Shown piece by piece: positions 3,140 through 48,751 of a stretch of DNA of 64,000 bases. The notes under the pieces are model-generated. The model saw nothing but the letters and a program-made list of their open reading frames with translations. It did no database searches and had not been told where the DNA came from. Both the position numbers and the translations under genes were made by a program. Each line of letters opens with the position of its first letter. The stretch's first letter is position 1. Origin of the DNA: Cunninghamella blakesleeana (lineage: Eukaryota > Mucoromycota > Mucoromycetes > Mucorales > Cunninghamellaceae); assembly GCA_017871115.1 (NCBI GenBank), contig JAFCIZ010000006.1:1240001-1304000 (forward strand), read 5' to 3'.

Positions 3140-4064
3140 ATTAATAATAATAATAATAGTTATTATTTACTATATTGTACAGATATATCCTTTTTTTTAA
3201 AAAAATAAAAAAATAAATAAAAAACTACATATATACATCTATATTATAAAAAATGAATAAAACGGCGAAATCTAAAATGTACGTGCGATCTTTACTAAAT
3301 TGATAGCATTAAAATCTATGTATAAATTAGTTTATGTACTAAATGCGTTATGAAAATATTTAATATATTATGTAAATATTATAAACATGAATTAGCAAAA
3401 ATGTTACGTGTTGTAATGTATTTTTTTTCCATTTTGTTATAAAGTAAGTTTTTATCCTTTTTTTTATAAAATAATTTTTATTATTAATAAATAATTTAAG
3501 TAGAATATTATCCATTATTTATAATCAAAAGCTTATTATTTTTTTTTTGTAATAGAGATATTAATGAATTCATATAGAAGCTAAAAAAAGCATAAACAAC
3601 AATTAAAATGGTTCGTATAACGTTTAAAATATTAGTATATATATACATGCATGTATGTATATAAAATTATTTTTTTTATGTACATACTATATATTTGTGT
3701 ATACCCAAATTATTTTAAAATAAAATAATATGAAATAGTGAATGATCCCAATTTATATGATAATAGTATTAATTCTTCTTTATAATCATATATAGTATGA
3801 TCAAACACATATATACAAAAAAAGGACCTTAGTATTGAATAATTTTTATATGCATTGCAGCATGATATTTGTAAACAAGCCTACCACACGTATAATGATC
3901 GTTCAATTTTAAGAGTCTTTTTTTTTTTAAAGTAAATTTACAATTTTAATGAAAGTAATTGTCGTTTAACTCTCGAATAATTAAATCAATAAATGTTTTA
4001 GATTACATAAATTCGTTTTTTTAATAGGATAGGCATATAAAATTATTTTTTATTTTTGTAATAG

Positions 4065-39326: not shown

Positions 39327-41431
39327 ATGACAAATAGCTTTGTTGAACTTTCAACAGCTATAGGTTGTCAATTTAATGAAGACTCCAATTCTATAACCTT
39401 CAGTAATATATACATATTCTAAAATAATGCATTATAGTAATAGTAATGTTAATTATAATAATATCAAAAGTCTCATATAGCAATATTTTTCTATCTATTT
39501 TTTTTTAGTTGTTGAACCCTCACTTTTTAGACGACAACTCACTCTAAAATTAAGGAACGATCCCAACTATCCTAACAATTTATCACAGTTTATCGACGAT
39601 TTTCAAAAATATACAGAAAACTCGACTTCTTTAAGGCAATGCTTACTTTCAGCCAGACTTTCTGATGAACTAACACTCACGAATAAGTAATATATATACA
39701 CAAAGCTAAAGAAAAAATAAGGGGTAGCAGTTTTTTATATATATGTAGACTTGGATAAATCTAATTTAATATCAATGTATATTTCTTTGTTGTTTAGATC
39801 TACTTCTGTAGATAGTTTATTCAAAACTCTACTTGCCATTGATATTTTACAACCAACGATGATCACAAATCTATTAGAACGATTGCCTGAATTTTATGAC
39901 GAATTAGAACAAGAGTAAGCTATATAGATTAAATACGTGTAAAAACTTTTGATAATTATTAAACCGGAATTGTATATGTTAATTTTTTTTTAAAAAAAAA
40001 CTTATATATGTATAGTAATTCAAGTTCATGTACAGCGAGACTCATACTTCATCAATTACGCTGGCTAGATTATATAGTAGAACCGCAGCAGTTGACAGGA
40101 ACTTTAATTGAAGTAAGTGAGATTGATTAAAAAACAATAAAAAAATATTTATCAATATGCAGAATTTTTAAATTAAATGTATACATATATATAAAATAGA
40201 TTATTCAAGTAACACCAACAGAAATTCAGCATGAAATTATTACTTCTTTACCAGACATTTTGAATGATACCGAACATAAAGTATTTTTCATATATATATA
40301 GAAAGCATTAACTATTTTTTTTATCTATATGCATGATATTTATTATTATTATTATTTATCTTCTATTTAGCCTATGGTTGTATTTTTAAAAGAATGGATG
40401 CAAGAGAATCCTGATTTGACGGTTCCTATTTTAGATGCATTTTCAAATTTAAATCTTCATTCTGAACAATTGGTAAATATTTATAAATGTAAATATTATT
40501 ATTCTATTTTTATATATTGATTACCTATTACCGGTTTTCTATTGTTATTATTATTTATATTTTAATATAGGATGATGTACGAAGTATGGTTTTAGATAGA
40601 TTACAATCAGCAGATCTTGATGATTTAGCGATTATGATCAAATTTTTATTACAGACTGTCACCCCTCAAACAATTGATACGGTAATTTCCAATCAATGCT
40701 TTTATGTATATATATATATGCACATATCTTAAATTATCATTTTGATAACTCATCATCATGTTATTATTATAATTATTTAGACCATTTTAGATATTAGAAA
40801 TAATCTTGATCTGAAATCATTAGGAAAAATACAGCAATCTGATCCACAACTCCACACACAGCAAACTCAGCAGCAGCAAAAAGCTCCTCAGTCTCCTACT
40901 GCATTGATTTTAGGTATGTATCATGATTTACTAGTGGAAATACTAACAATTATAATAATATCAATAACAATAATAACTTTATAATTATATTTATTAATCT
41001 TAATTTTTTTCTTTTTATAGAATCTATCAAGTTAGGGCTTCAATTCCATAAATTTGTTTGTGATGCTTGGGTGAGATCATTAACAGCTCTAGAATCACAG
41101 GTAAAAACTGTTGCAGTCTTTTTCTTAAATAAATAAACAAACTAACAAATATGTTTAATAATAATAACGTGGTTATGCTTTTTTTTATTATTATTAGAAA
41201 TCTCATAAAATAATAGATGTACTAGTACTTTTTATTCTATACTCAATGGCTTCCATGAAAAAAAAGGCCGAGCAAGTATTAAGAAGAAAAATTATAGCTG
41301 GGCAAATAACTTCACAACTTATTAAGGAGACTTTAATATACCACGATAAAAGCTTATCTATGTAAGTTAACTCTCCACTTAATTATATACTTATACATAT
41401 ACATATATATATATATATGGTCATGCTTTTA

Positions 41432-41470
<39 letters not shown>

Positions 41471-42904
41471 AATTTATCTTATAGGTATATACCTTCTATC
41501 ATATCACTAACAGAATCATTATTAAGATCATCAAATCAACATACAGTATTAGCTTTGTGCGCTAAAACAATTTATATTAACATTTATAAAGCAAGCGATG
41601 TTTATAATCGTCAGGTAATTAATCAATATTTATATATAAATGTATGCTATTGATTTATGATCTTTATTAATTGTATATATATGTATGAATCTAATATTTT
41701 TAGGAAATCATTGGCTCCCTTGTTACCCATATTGGAAGTGGTTTAATATCCTTTTTATTATTATAAATTTTACTAACAATTCCTATCATAAGGTTTAATA
41801 TTTTCCTTAACTTTTTATTTTTTATTTTTATTTTTTTATCAACACAATGAAGAAATGGACACTGCACTTGAAGTTCTTCTTAATTTAGCTCAAGAAAATA
41901 CAGCATTAGTATCAGTTTATAATGTGTTTATTAAAGGAATACTGGATTATATCGACAACCTCTCACTATCTCAAATTCGTATACTGTTTGACATATTTAG
42001 TGTTTTGGCTCTTAAGGTAATTGGTAAAATAATAATAAAGACTTTATTTTTTGTTTTCTATTTTGAAATCCAATGACCAAATACTTACAAGACTTTAATA
42101 TTTATGATATATTTATTATTATATTATACAAAATAGGATAATAATCGTTATAGTGGAGAGTCTAGCTTATGGTCAGATATACAAATTGTGCTTCGTAAAC
42201 AACTATCCAATCCACGTTTAAAGTATAAGAAAATTGGTATTTTGGGATGCTTGGCTGCAGTAAAAATACTTGGCTCTCGTGAACTATGCAAACAATTTTC
42301 AAAATCTGGTGAATCAAGTTCTCAAAGTAAGATATAATTTATGATTTTCTTTTTTACAAAATTATTAACATAATGATCCAACCACTAATATAATTATTAA
42401 ACATGTATTTATCAAGGACATCAAAATGCTGATACTATTGATCGTCATCCAATACTTAAAGAAGCAGTTAATCTCGTTGAAATGATTACTCGAAGTTGTT
42501 CCGAATATCCTGTAAGTATCACTATATATATTTGTTTAATTTTTTTTTAACTGATTCTTATAAAATTATGTTTATACTCAAATATTATTTTCTATTTTAT
42601 TTACGAAGATATGTATGAGTATGTTTTATGATGAATTGGCAAATCTCATGGAAAATAGTGATATTGATGATCGATTTAAAAACTGGGTTCAAGATAGCTT
42701 TACTACTGATTTTATTGATACTTATATTGTTGAACATGAATCATGCAGTCAATTAGAATCAACTTTTGATAATCTTCAATCGATTGGTATAAAACCAACC
42801 ATGGTATTAGATATTAATGGATCGGTAAATATATATAAATATACATGCTTTAATATTATGTTATAGAAATTATCATTATAATTAAAATGTTTATTCATTT
42901 TTCT

Positions 42905-42969
<65 letters not shown>

Positions 42970-45900
42970 TATATCCATAACTATTATAGAGCGCTGAAGT
43001 TGCTTTAAAGATATACTCTTTACTTCAAAACTCCAAAGAAAAGAAACAAAGAGAAAATGCTATTGTACTCTGTTCCATATTTAATCTCCTACAAAGTTGT
43101 GAAAAAGCTTTTAATAATGGATCTTTAGAAGGTGTAGACGCCTTATTAGGTTGCGGCATTATATTATTTGATTTAAATGATATAGAGGTATATAATAATT
43201 CAAAAATTGATATATGCAAATAATAATAAAGTATAATTTTAATCAAGGTCGTATTAATACCATACTTTTGGGTTTTTATTAATAGAATACCCTTGATAAC
43301 TGGCAAACTTATGAAGCTGATGATGCATGCTCTATGATATATGTAACAATTAATTGGTAATAGGAAAAGGGAAAATGGAAAGAAACAAATTGATGAAGAT
43401 ATAGAAGATTACCCATGCTTATTTTTTTCTTTTTTAGGTTACGTGAGATGCTCAACTGTTTTTCTATTACAATTGAAGATGAAGATATTCGTAGAAAGCT
43501 TATAACTCGACTTAAACATATAGTAAAATTGGAATCTATACTAAACACGATCTTACCACATACATCCAACTTTGTACCAATAGACATACAATCATTATTA
43601 TCACCTTTTCAAGATTTTAGAGAAAATCGTTCTTTACACATTAAATCCCAAAGTAGCCTTCGTATTAGATCAAATTCATTAACTCCTGGTGAAGATAATT
43701 CAGATAATGATAGCATTATTCAACCATCATCAAAACGAGATTCAACTAAAACATATGCTTCTAAATTTGAAACTGTAGATAGTTTAAGACCTTTTATGCG
43801 TGGTTTAAAGGTAGTATACATATTGCTATGAAAGCTAGATGAAGCTATTAATATATTAATACTTATAAAATTTATATATATATATATATATTTATACTAT
43901 AGATTCAAAGTCTAGCTATATTGGGAGCTATTACTACTAATGATAGTGAAGACTTAAAGCTTGAAGTAAGATATATATATGCATATATGTGAACACAAAT
44001 ATGGAGTATATAGCAATGTCATATAATAGCTAACTTCATATTTTTAATAATATAGTATCAAGATATAAATTATTTATTACAAGACATTAATAGAAAACTT
44101 GATGATAAAATTGTACCACCTCCTGTAAATTTCTTTGGCAAGAAAAAAGTATCCCCTTCTAACAATAAATATGATAATATAAATCCTGATACATTTACCT
44201 ATATGCCTAGCCAAGAATTAATGCATTCGGTAAAAATAAATGATGTTAATAAGAATAATGATATGAACAATAAAAATACTGTACTAATAATAATATTAAC
44301 ATTCTTTATTTATTAATTTTTATTTTAATTAGATGATAGTATATCTACCAAAAATTTTACAGGTATTAGAAACTGCTTATGAAGATCTACTGGACACCAA
44401 CACTCAAGCTGGTCGTATTGAAAAGGTATTTCTTTTTTTTTTTTTTAAAAAAAAAAAAGAGATAATAATAATAATAATAATGATAATTACACATATGTTG
44501 GTATTATATATTTATGTATTAATTTATTTTTATTTTTATTTATTATTATTATTTAAAAAATTATACAAAATATATAGGGTTCTGAAGGGTTAGCATTGTG
44601 TATATCATTAGTCATAGATATATTATACAAATTATTTGGGTGGTCAGAATTATCTAGTCCTGAAAATCAAAATATATTAATGGTAATATACATTAATATA
44701 CAAAAATATCGAAAATACACTAAGATTCATTAGATGTACGTATTAATCTTTTTTTTTTTCTTTCAAATATATATAGGGATTAATTGGAACATTATCAGAA
44801 CAAATGTCTGCTGAAAGATCCAACATAAGAACAGTCAGTGAGCAATTTAAAGAAGCGTTTAGATATTTATCAAATTTTGAAACTAACATCCCACAAATGA
44901 AATCGGTTATTATATTATTTAAAACTTTGGAGCGAATTATGGAATTATCTTGCAACAATGAAATTTTCAAAGATGATGCTATGAAAGTCGTACAAGATAT
45001 ATTATCGAGAGATTGGTTTGATTGGAGAGAAGCTAAAGTAATCTTACATAATAATACTCACATATATACTTATAGAAAGATAAAGTACAGTTACTCATAT
45101 ATTTATTTTTATTATTTTATAAATTACAAACAAACATAATACGATATTTTAAAATGTAGAAAGATATCCCTTACTTGGTTGAAAAAGGAATTGAACTTAG
45201 CGACGATCCTCTTCAGACTTTAATAAACTATGTGAATCTAGTATTACCAACGTTTGATAAAGAAGGAAAATTGGAAGAGTATCCGTTATTAAAATCTGAA
45301 ACGGTTGTAGCTTTTTATCAGGTACTAAATAAAATATAATAAATAATAAAAGGACGGAAAATAGATATAAAGAAAAAGACAGCAGATAAATTAAATTACG
45401 TGTCTAACTTGTATATACTTATTTATATGTAAATAGGCAATAATCAATCAAACTGTTAAATGTATTAGCTTATTGGAAGAAAGAGATGATGATGATGAAG
45501 CTTTATTGGTCCGAACATACCAAATTGTGCAATTATTTGAACGTATCACAAATTATGTCAAAGTTAAAGAACAACGTGCTTTATTTGGAATCTTACTCAA
45601 AACCAGTAAATCATTTATTGAACAGTTTACTAAGCATAGCATTCCATTTTTTTCAAGAATATTTAAATATCATAAAGATTATATTGCAAATATCTTTCGA
45701 TTATTCCAAATTTCTACAAGATTATTACAGGTAAATAACTATGTATTTATAGACATCGTATCATTTTTTTTATTTTCAATTTTATAAATAATTTGTATTA
45801 ATTAATAATTATTACTTGAAAAATCACTAGATCATGTGCTCTCATGTAAAAATTAACAAAGATGTTCAATTAGCTACTTATGTACCACCATTAAAAAAGG

Positions 45901-46889
45901 TTCTGGAAGTAGTTATTTATCAAGTAAAAATATTATTAACCGAAAATAATGCGCCCACTGAAGTATTCTTTTTAGGTATATATATTCTTTTACAATACAT
46001 ATGTATAAAAGGCAAATGAATGTGACAATCACAAATTTCGAACATCTATACTAATAATTATTTATTTTATATTATTTTTTTTATAGGTGCTTTGAAACAT
46101 CGTGATCTTACGGGTGCAACAGTGTCATCACAGGTAAACAATAAAAAAACAAAACAAAATGTTTTATTTAAAATACAAAACTCAAAATAGAATACTTGTA
46201 TTCACATGTATTATATTTATTTAATTTATTATTATTAGATTCCAAAGGAGTTTTCTAGTGATTCTGAAGATGAATTATCGGACGATACTACCACCGTTCA
46301 ACAATCAGCAACTAAGAACACATTAAATCCATCACAATTATCATCATCTAAAAATACAAAAAAGCAAAAAAATACAGCATATTTACCACCTAAAAAAAAG
46401 GCAAAGACTGCGGATCTCGATGTTGAATATAGAACTTCCAGTCAAATACCTTCTAGCATGGATGAAGATTCTGAAAATGAAGATAACCACATAATTGAAC
46501 TGAACTCTGAAGAGGAAGATGACGATATTGAAGAAGAAGAAGAAGACGAAGACGGTGATGTTAAAATAGACCTAGAGAATAACAAAAAGCGATCTAAAAG
46601 CCCAATGAAATTCTCAAGTTTTAATAAATTTTTGGATGAACAGAGTCAACCTAATAACAAAAATACAATGTCAAATATATTCAGTAGTAGTGAAGACGAT
46701 GATTCAATAGAAATAAATAATAGTAAAAGCCAATCTACAGTTAGTAGCCATGATAGCTATGATAGTAATAATGACCAACATCATTCCCCAAGTAAAAAAT
46801 TAAAACCATTTGATTTGACAAGTAAATCACCTAAATCAAAAAAACGTAGTTATGGTTTAGGCATGACAAGAAAAAGACCAAAACAATAA
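39327..46889 (+). CDS. FANCD2: FANCD2 ortholog, Fanconi anaemia interstrand-crosslink repair protein
   Basis: Twenty-nine exons give 1539 aa (human about 1450): 39327-39402, 39509-39686, 39798-39914, 40016-40112, 40200-40280, 40371-40472, 40571-40681, 40781-40913, 41021-41100, 41198-41361, 41485-41614, 41704-41745, 41846-42016, 42137-42326, 42417-42511, 42609-42824, 42990-43187, 43286-43356, 43438-43810, 43903-43965, 44056-44229, 44333-44425, 44578-44682, 44777-45037, 45160-45321, 45437-45730, 45831-45975, 46087-46133, 46239-46889. Family hallmarks are LERLPEFYDELEQD, LILHQLRWLDYI, VPILDAFSNLNL, IKFLLQTVTP, THIGSG with DTALEVLLNL, KGILDYIDN, LLQSCEKA, LTRLKHIVKLE, GWSELSSPENQN and FRLFQISTRLLQ. 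FANCD2 pairs with FANCI, is monoubiquitinated and clamps DNA at crosslinks in the nucleus. Lys415 (YKASDVY) lies in the region of the ubiquitinated lysine. The tail (from about 1325) is acidic, then basic, like a nuclear localisation region. Exons 12 and 13 are joined by a U12-type AT-AC intron. Confidence 0.93.
41746..41845 (+). other. U12-type AT-AC intron within FANCD2
   Basis: This 100-bp intron starts ATATCCTTTT, the minor-spliceosome donor consensus. It has a perfect U12 branch site TTCCTTAAC at 41803-41811 and ends CAACAC. Removing it joins HIGSGL to NEEMDTAL in frame, matching the family spacing. A GT-AG reading (donor GTTTAA at 41741, acceptor at 41852) keeps the frame but deletes four residues of the conserved block. 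The branch-to-acceptor distance (about 35 nt) is longer than usual. Confidence 0.8.
42909..42965. repeat. Compound (TA)n(TG)n microsatellite in FANCD2 intron 16
   Basis: About 15 TA units run directly into about 14 TG units, inside the intron between 42824 and 42990 and about 25 bp from the 3' splice site. Confidence 0.9.
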
Positions 46890-47259: not shown

Positions 47260-48751
47260 CTAATTAAATCTTTTTTTGATACCAGTTCTACGGAATTGAA
47301 TTTTGGTCATGAATGGCAAAATAAATAAGTAAGTAACCAAAAGGCAATAGAACAAAAATCGTACGATGGGCCTAAAATGGAAATATAAAAATAGTTGTAA
47401 AAAAAAAAAATAGAAATGAGTTCAATGTTTTCACAAGTAAAAATGCAAATCTTTTTTAAGGAATAATATTTTACCAATAATCAGACCAGGACCAATTATT
47501 TTCAACCGATGATGGAGCCATAAATTTAGAATTACGATGCTGTCTCCATACAATAGACGACTGATTTGTTGAAGAGCCGGTAAAGAAAGTTAATCCAAGA
47601 AAGACGGAAAGTAATTTAGTAGGTGACGAGGAAGAAGAAGTTGATGATGTGCAAGTAGAAGAACAAGGAGATAAAGATGATGAGGATTTTCTTTTATTTG
47701 TTTGAGAAGAGCGACGACGTCTACGTTGGCGTTCTTCAGGAGACATCATAGCAGCACGTTGAGCAGCACGTTCTTTCAACATCCTTTGATGATTAATTCT
47801 TTGTTGCTGTAAAGCCAATTTTCTTTCCTTAATGCGACGTTCCTTTTCCGCCTGATCGAATTTTTGTTTATCCACTAAAAACTGTTCTAATAAAGGTTCA
47901 CCATTAGGTAAAGCTTGAATCATTCTTTGTAACATTTCATTTTCTTGTTTTAATAATTGTTGTGAATATTTTAAATATTTAATATATTCTGTGGCCTTTT
48001 GTAAAATGGTAGCTTTATTTAATTTGCGAGCGACAGGAATTCCATCTTCTTCTTCTTCTATTAAATCTTCATCATCATCCATGGATCGGGACTCATCACT
48101 ATTATCTACATCTCTACATAATGCTGGTACCACCTGTTGTAATTCTTTAATTCGATCATTGATGTTATTTCGATATCTTCTTTCAATGGCATTATGGGCT
48201 ACTTTTTTGAACGGTAAATTTGGTTGTTGTTGTGATTGATTTGATGTCATACAGTCGTATTCGTCTTCATCATCTTCACCTTCTTCTTTAATAGTTTCCT
48301 CGATAGGTGATATAGGATGAGTAAAATGCATCATATTGGAAATACAGGATGATGTAGGCGATAAAGAAGAAGAGGAAGAGGAAGGAGAGGGAGAGGTTTG
48401 AAAGGAATGGATAGTTGTCGACGATCCAGTTGATAAGGAAGTTGTTGGTGTAATAATATCATCAGATGGTATTAAAATAGAACCCATATCATATATATCT
48501 GTAAAAGGAGGCTGAGGCGATATATTAGTAATAGGTGGTGAAGTGGATGATGATGAGGAAGAGGATGAAGTAGAAAAGATCATATCGTTAGCTGTAAAAC
48601 AATCTTGTTGTTGTTGTGGCGGTGAAGAAGAATTGGATAAAGTTGCTGGTGTTTTAGGCATGGTTGGGTTTTGAAACCAGGATAACATGTAATCATTTTC
48701 ATCATGAAGGAAGTTTTGATATTGACAATCATAGAAGGGGCTGATATTCAT
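47260..48751 (-). CDS. Short SREBP-like bHLH-leucine-zipper membrane transcription factor
   Basis: Two exons (48751-47475, 47371-47260) give 462 aa. Residues 185-265 are a bHLH region: AHNAIERRYRNNINDRIKELQ carries Tyr193, the SREBP-specific tyrosine where most bHLH proteins have Arg. The loop has an acidic insert of about 25 residues, followed by KLNKATILQKATEYIKYLKY and a leucine zipper. A basic coiled region follows, then two hydrophobic segments (380-392 LLSVFLGLTFFTG and about 429-447 VRFLFYCLLVTYLFILPFM) flank a loop of about 38 residues. This fits a hairpin in the ER membrane with both ends cytosolic. Only 15 residues follow, so the long C-terminal SCAP-binding region is absent. SREBPs sense sterols or oxygen and are released by proteolysis. 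The second hydrophobic segment appears only after the intron is spliced. Confidence 0.85.

Follow-up and report, generated by a model that had tools for sequence, protein, structure and literature searches.

The FANCD2 gene of this Cunninghamella genome very probably contains a functional U12-type AT-AC intron, which would be excised by the minor spliceosome; this reading is based on the genome sequence and on homologous proteins. The intron was assigned to the U12 type because both defining signals, a donor RTATCCTT (here ATATCCTTTTT) and a branch site TCCTTRAC (here TTCCTTAAC), are present, although the short spacing typical of such introns is not. Its AT and AC ends join the coding frame. 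The typical distance of 10-20 nt between branch site and acceptor is not a defining feature, and in FANCD2 34 nt follow the branch motif. The FANCD2 intron adds a new member to an intron class already described. The window analysed, a stretch of 64,000 nt with a G+C content of 26% (C6:1240001-1304000), belongs to a genome of 31.9 Mb in 12 contigs.

Table 1. Features of the FANCD2 intron, its gene and the minor splicing system. Positions are those of the window unless a contig is given.
Feature	Location	Strand	Details
FANCD2 gene	39327..46889	+	29 coding exons, 1539 aa; model read by hand, single open frame
Exon 12 (EIIGSLVTHIGSGL)	41704..41745	+	gene model and homologue alignment
AT-AC minor (U12-type) intron in FANCD2, very probable	41746..41845	+	100 nt, phase 0
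Donor ATATCCTTTTT	41746..41756	+	read directly; CCTTTTT complementary to AAAAAGG at the U11 5' end
Branch site TTCCTTAAC	41803..41811	+	read directly; branch A presumably 41809 or 41810
T-rich stretch, branch site to acceptor	41812..41839	+	71% T across 41812-41845
Acceptor CAACAC	41840..41845	+	AC ending at 41845 in frame, AC ending at 41843 out of frame
Exon 13 (NEEMDTALEVLL...)	41846..42016	+	gene model and homologue alignment
GT-AG alternative, rejected	41741..41852	+	starts GTTTAATATC, ends AATGAAG; in frame
U11	C2:1639526-1639710	-	Rfam 70 bits, cut-off 39
U6atac	C1:4202773-4202882	+	Rfam 54.5 bits, cut-off 33
U12	C1:4536842-4536941	-	Rfam 38.2 bits, below the gathering cut-off of 53
AT-AC introns accepted			L004, L006, L007, L008 (FANCD2), L009, L046, L049, L053
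GT-AG minor introns accepted			L047, L057

Direct reading gives ...GGAAGTGGTTTA as the last bases of exon 12 and AATGAAGAAATGG (AATGAAG) as the opening of exon 13, and the junction reads HIGSGL|NEEMDTAL. The boundaries, donor, branch site and terminal AC of the original prediction were correct to the base. Its in-frame join of HIGSGL to NEEMDTAL is confirmed as a phase 0 junction, the same as in the FANCD2 protein of Cunninghamella echinulata. Counted from the second A of the branch motif (41810), the intron continues for 35 nt. At its 3' end stands a tandem ACAC; splicing at the first AC would break the frame, and splicing at the second preserves it. Within the window the pattern ATATCCTT-N30-60-TCCTTRAC has a single match; over 100 dinucleotide shuffles the mean was 0.01. 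The 34 nt following the branch motif are 71% T and 79% pyrimidine, but the T excess is small, since the genome is AT-rich and in the other 27 introns of the gene T makes up 31-67% of the final 36 nt. The window has ATATCCTTTTTT also at 3185 (+) and 54343 (-), with no branch-like motif near either; these sites are due to chance, or else are minor introns with weaker branch sites.

The gene model contains 28 introns, one AT-AC and 27 GT-AG. The sites of the latter were picked by eye; all these introns start with GTA and end with AG, and the model is in agreement with the public protein. The gene had been predicted to be FANCD2, and this holds: the first 808 residues of the model, submitted to Pfam, match PF14631 (FancD2) with 585.6 bits (E 2.8e-175), and the best homologue of the full model, FANCD2 of C. 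echinulata (P0001; Mucorales, Mucoromycota), is identical in 1504 of 1544 aligned positions (97%). Adjoining FANCD2 is an open frame of 426 aa (47471-48751, - strand), which by eye has the look of a bHLH (SREBP-like) transcription factor.

The original prediction made the intron dependent on the presence of U12-class snRNAs in the genome and proposed to search for four of them. In Rfam searches of the genome three were found, namely U11, U12 and U6atac, so that the host does have minor-class snRNAs; the fourth, U4atac, was not found. The U12 match has 100 nt against the 151 positions of the model, and its 3' stem-loop is mostly gone. It retains UGCCU, AAUGAGUAAGGA and the Sm-like AAUUUUUUGA, and beside the branch-pairing segment it carries AAGGAUAA in place of the Rfam consensus AAGGAAAA. 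Duplex prediction matches the donor to both U11 and U6atac, and the branch site to U12. The criterion by which the minor system is considered present in the available part of PMC10639083 includes the presence of two or more minor snRNAs.

Four pattern searches of the genome produced 10, 1, 17 and 3 sites (20 distinct), and the corresponding backward patterns 0, 0, 2 and 4; thus the last search, with a shorter gap, was not above chance. Sites were accepted if the flanking frames joined. Acceptance was not blind, as the candidates were viewed by eye before the frame was considered. Ten strict-consensus minor introns were recognised, nine of them outside FANCD2 (seven AT-AC, two GT-AG); the search for other AT-AC introns that had been suggested with the prediction thus yielded seven, recognised by pattern and frame. 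Hand-joined exons (10 sequences for eight genes, L047 excluded) were scanned against Pfam. Five of the eight genes have matches above the cut-off (Brr6_like_C_C, zf-TFIIIC, protein kinase, importin-beta N and HIT), whereas the joined exons of L004, L006 and L053 have none, and the ends of these introns rest on the open frame. Joining at AC and not at AG raises the Brr6_like_C_C score of L007 from 55 to 72.2 bits and the zf-TFIIIC score of L009 from 49.6 to 58.3 bits. Genes in the set are presumably CDK7-, IPO9-, FHIT- and DCTN3-like; the gene containing L047 is presumably dynactin p22-like. Both L047 and L057, the latter in the HIT-domain gene, combine GT-AG ends with a minor-class donor and branch site.

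The other ten distinct sites were set aside. L051, L052, L056 and L059 have neither A nor G at position +1 (the frame test covered L056 only), L005 has no open junction, the sole open junction of L011, L012 and L014 is at gap 0, and L013 duplicates L012. L010 has open junctions, yet no recognisable protein.

All ten accepted introns start with RTATCCTTTTT, though the searches demanded just TATCCTT. The six other RTATCCTT sites of the same searches, which include two copies of one sequence, all lack this extended donor; on both strands of the window TTT follows 63 of 409 CCTT sites. The donor segment CCUUUUU is complementary over its whole length to AAAAAGG, at the 5' end of U11. Six of the ten branch sites have an A directly before TCCTTAAC. 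This A can pair with U12, because the latter has AAGGAUAA and not the consensus; the count of six in ten lends weak support to such pairing.

The gap of 35 nt had been considered unusually long. It is real and lies beyond the range given in reviews, but it is not exceptional in this genome. From motif end to intron end, the eight AT-AC introns have 34, 46, 23, 34, 11, 10, 36 and 36 nt, and the GT-AG introns 49 nt (L047) and 35 nt (L057). Thus the spacing is 23-49 nt in eight of the ten minor introns, exceeding both the 10-20 nt of PMC8199999 and the optimum of 11-13 nt of PMC3584512 (both as given in the available parts), and 10 and 11 nt in the other two, which have the same branch motif. Within this small set of ten, long spacing prevails. 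The eight long stretches contain 48-72% T, and are not clearly distinguished from the ends of the major FANCD2 introns.

Of the ACs that lie 10 nt or more beyond the branch motif, the first serves as acceptor in seven of the eight AT-AC introns. The FANCD2 intron departs from this, bypassing an AC at 32 nt and using that at 34 nt. L046 skips an AC at 3 nt. In both GT-AG introns the acceptor is the first AG, with ACs skipped at 3, 6 and 14 nt in L047 and at 6 nt in L057. L006 and L053 have other in-frame ends, of which the nearest in-frame AC was chosen; hence they provide no independent support for scanning, and without them the first AC is used in five of six introns.

Three other readings of the intron and one of its role have to be weighed. 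If the major spliceosome removed an ordinary GT-AG intron at 41741-41852, with the U12-like motifs present by coincidence, the reading frame would be kept as well, and THIGSEMDTAL would stand where the AT-AC splice gives THIGSGLNEEMDTAL. However, four residues would then be missing. Of the 87 homologues, all aligned, 84 have 15 residues across the junction stretch, as does the AT-AC model, and one of these, the C. echinulata protein, has the identical junction. The exceptions have 10 (Circinella minor), 16 and 18 residues, and the Circinella protein (P0005), annotated with a similarly short junction THIGKMDVAL, speaks for the GT-AG ends. Automatic gene finders rarely allow AT-AC introns, and thus the public C. 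echinulata protein may be based on transcripts. With a profile of 85 homologues, from which P0001 and P0005 were excluded, the AT-AC protein scores 1600.1 bits and the GT-AG protein 1584.1 bits, a deficit of 16 bits. Compared with solved FANCD2 chains, of which the best-matching are presumably human, the local piece reaches 112.8 bits with an ungapped junction; if the GT-AG ends are used, there is a four-residue gap and the score is 103.6 bits, 9 bits lower. Moreover, the donor would be GTTTAA, against GTA in the 27 other introns of the model. An ordinary GT-AG intron is highly improbable. Equally improbable is a U2-dependent AT-AC intron, handled by the major spliceosome. Such introns exist elsewhere, and the long spacing and the T-rich stretch resemble major introns; however, their donors are ATAAGT-like, whereas here donor and branch site have the full minor consensus, are complementary to U11 and U12 of the same genome, and recur in nine further introns.

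Another possibility is that the long spacing is only apparent: the branch would lie at a weaker site closer to the acceptor, and TTCCTTAAC would serve as a decoy or helper. The branch position was deduced from the motif, and the scoring covered strict TCCTTRAC matches; a nearer site would also suit the optimum of 11-13 nt (PMC3584512, available part). On the other hand, there is no second TCCTTRAC downstream of the motif (the last copy in each intron was taken), and the two introns with short gaps, of 10 and 11 nt, have this motif as well. A nearer branch site is rather unlikely. It is also unlikely, and slightly more so, that the chief role of the intron is that of a regulatory switch limiting the amount of FANCD2 protein. 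Retention would lead to an in-frame stop after GLISFLLL, and minor introns are described as switches in animals (PMC3728624, available part). However, a stop can occur in any intron, and minor splicing is not increased in proliferating Rhizophagus cells according to the available part of PMC10639083. The preferred reading is a U12-type intron with its branch site at TTCCTTAAC.

Recognition by U11 and U12 followed by exchange for U6atac is the known minor pathway. The available part of PMC3584512 describes the same steps. In the FANCD2 intron, U11 would pair with CCUUUUU of the donor, and U12 with UCCUU-AC, with one A left over as the presumed branch nucleotide; then U6atac (AAAGGA) would displace U11 at the donor. 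After lariat formation, the second step would use an AC downstream of the branch. The acceptor, usually about 35 nt beyond the branch, would be located by a scan that stops at an early dinucleotide, not by a fixed spacing of 11-13 nt, and this dinucleotide would match the first base of the intron, A with AC and G with AG. As one branch motif precedes acceptors 10 to 49 nt away, the acceptor in this genome is probably located by such scanning with matching of the intron ends. A wider proposal, possible but tentative, is that in Cunninghamella, and perhaps in other Mucorales, scanning (commonly over about 35 nt, to a matching AC or AG) replaced short fixed spacing, together with donors of full U11 complementarity, the short U12 of basal fungi and the possible absence of a U4atac gene.

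Rhizopus oryzae and Phycomyces blakesleeanus are Mucorales. Minor introns of both the AT-AC and GT-AG subtypes are reported from these two species in the available part of PMC2846911; they share with the present genome the placement in Mucorales and both subtypes, and differ as species. Mucorales are thus already known to have minor introns. Among the matches listed, no title or opening of an abstract reports minor introns in Cunninghamella, a minor intron in a fungal FANCD2, or long branch-to-acceptor spacing in fungal minor introns. With the U12-type AT-AC introns of animals and plants the FANCD2 intron shares the ATATCCTT donor, the TCCTTAAC branch site, the AC end and the position of a single minor intron amid major ones. 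It differs in having 34 nt, whereas the available part of PMC8199999 gives 10-20 nt. The T-rich stretch may be a further difference, since the available parts of the reviews (PMC8199999, PMC3584512) give no polypyrimidine tract, which is typical of the class but does not define it. Rhizophagus irregularis, with 205 predicted minor introns, is likewise an early-diverging fungus with a minor system; however, it has all four minor snRNAs (PMC10639083, available part), whereas here U4atac was not found. The same source gives minor introns for Rhizophagus and Basidiobolus and, in that part, no convincing support for Ascomycota and Basidiomycota.

According to the available part of PMC4133162, in U12 of all basal fungi the third stem is atrophied and the last stem short, and U4atac was undetected in Lichtheimia and present in one copy in other basal fungi. 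Hence the short U12 is already known, and a loss of U4atac would not be general. Lichtheimia corymbifera shares with the present genome the shortened U12 and the undetected U4atac, whereas the other basal fungi differ from it in their reported U4atac copy. In Apophysomyces, U6atac is present, and U4atac and U12 were not found (PMC5604411, available part).

The search of the present genome for U4atac with Rfam RF00618 gave no matches at E 0.001 or at E 10 (48/1325 candidates scored), and a stem pattern gave no sites. A 17-base stem-II pattern with at most two mismatches gave 92 sites, compared with 90 for the reversed control. One of the 92 (L015) is U6atac itself, four repeats of one C11 sequence were excluded, and 87 were inspected. 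The first 29 (L016-L044) contain a Sm-like motif in six cases and a stem-I motif in none, 18 of the other 58 contain one of the two motifs, and none of the 87 contains both. The missing matches are no proof that U4atac is absent from the genome. U6atac retains the segment that would pair with U4atac, and thus a diverged U4atac is likelier than its replacement by U4. Net of monomers, human U4 folds with this U6atac at -3.8 kcal/mol and with the consensus U6atac at -3.6, and human U4atac at -16.9 and -15.6 kcal/mol, respectively. CENATAC (PF14968) had no matches in the genome, and the control was equally silent.

Minor introns are described as requiring an acceptor near the branch, best at 11-13 nt. 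The occurrence of the same branch motif with acceptors at 10-11 and at 23-49 nt provides a natural set for probing 3' splice-site choice by the minor spliceosome. Gene finders limited to GT-AG may mis-annotate genes with such introns, and FANCD2 of Circinella minor is possibly a case. Its annotated junction is five residues short at the same intron position, a hint that this species may have the same AT-AC intron, mis-annotated with GT-AG ends.
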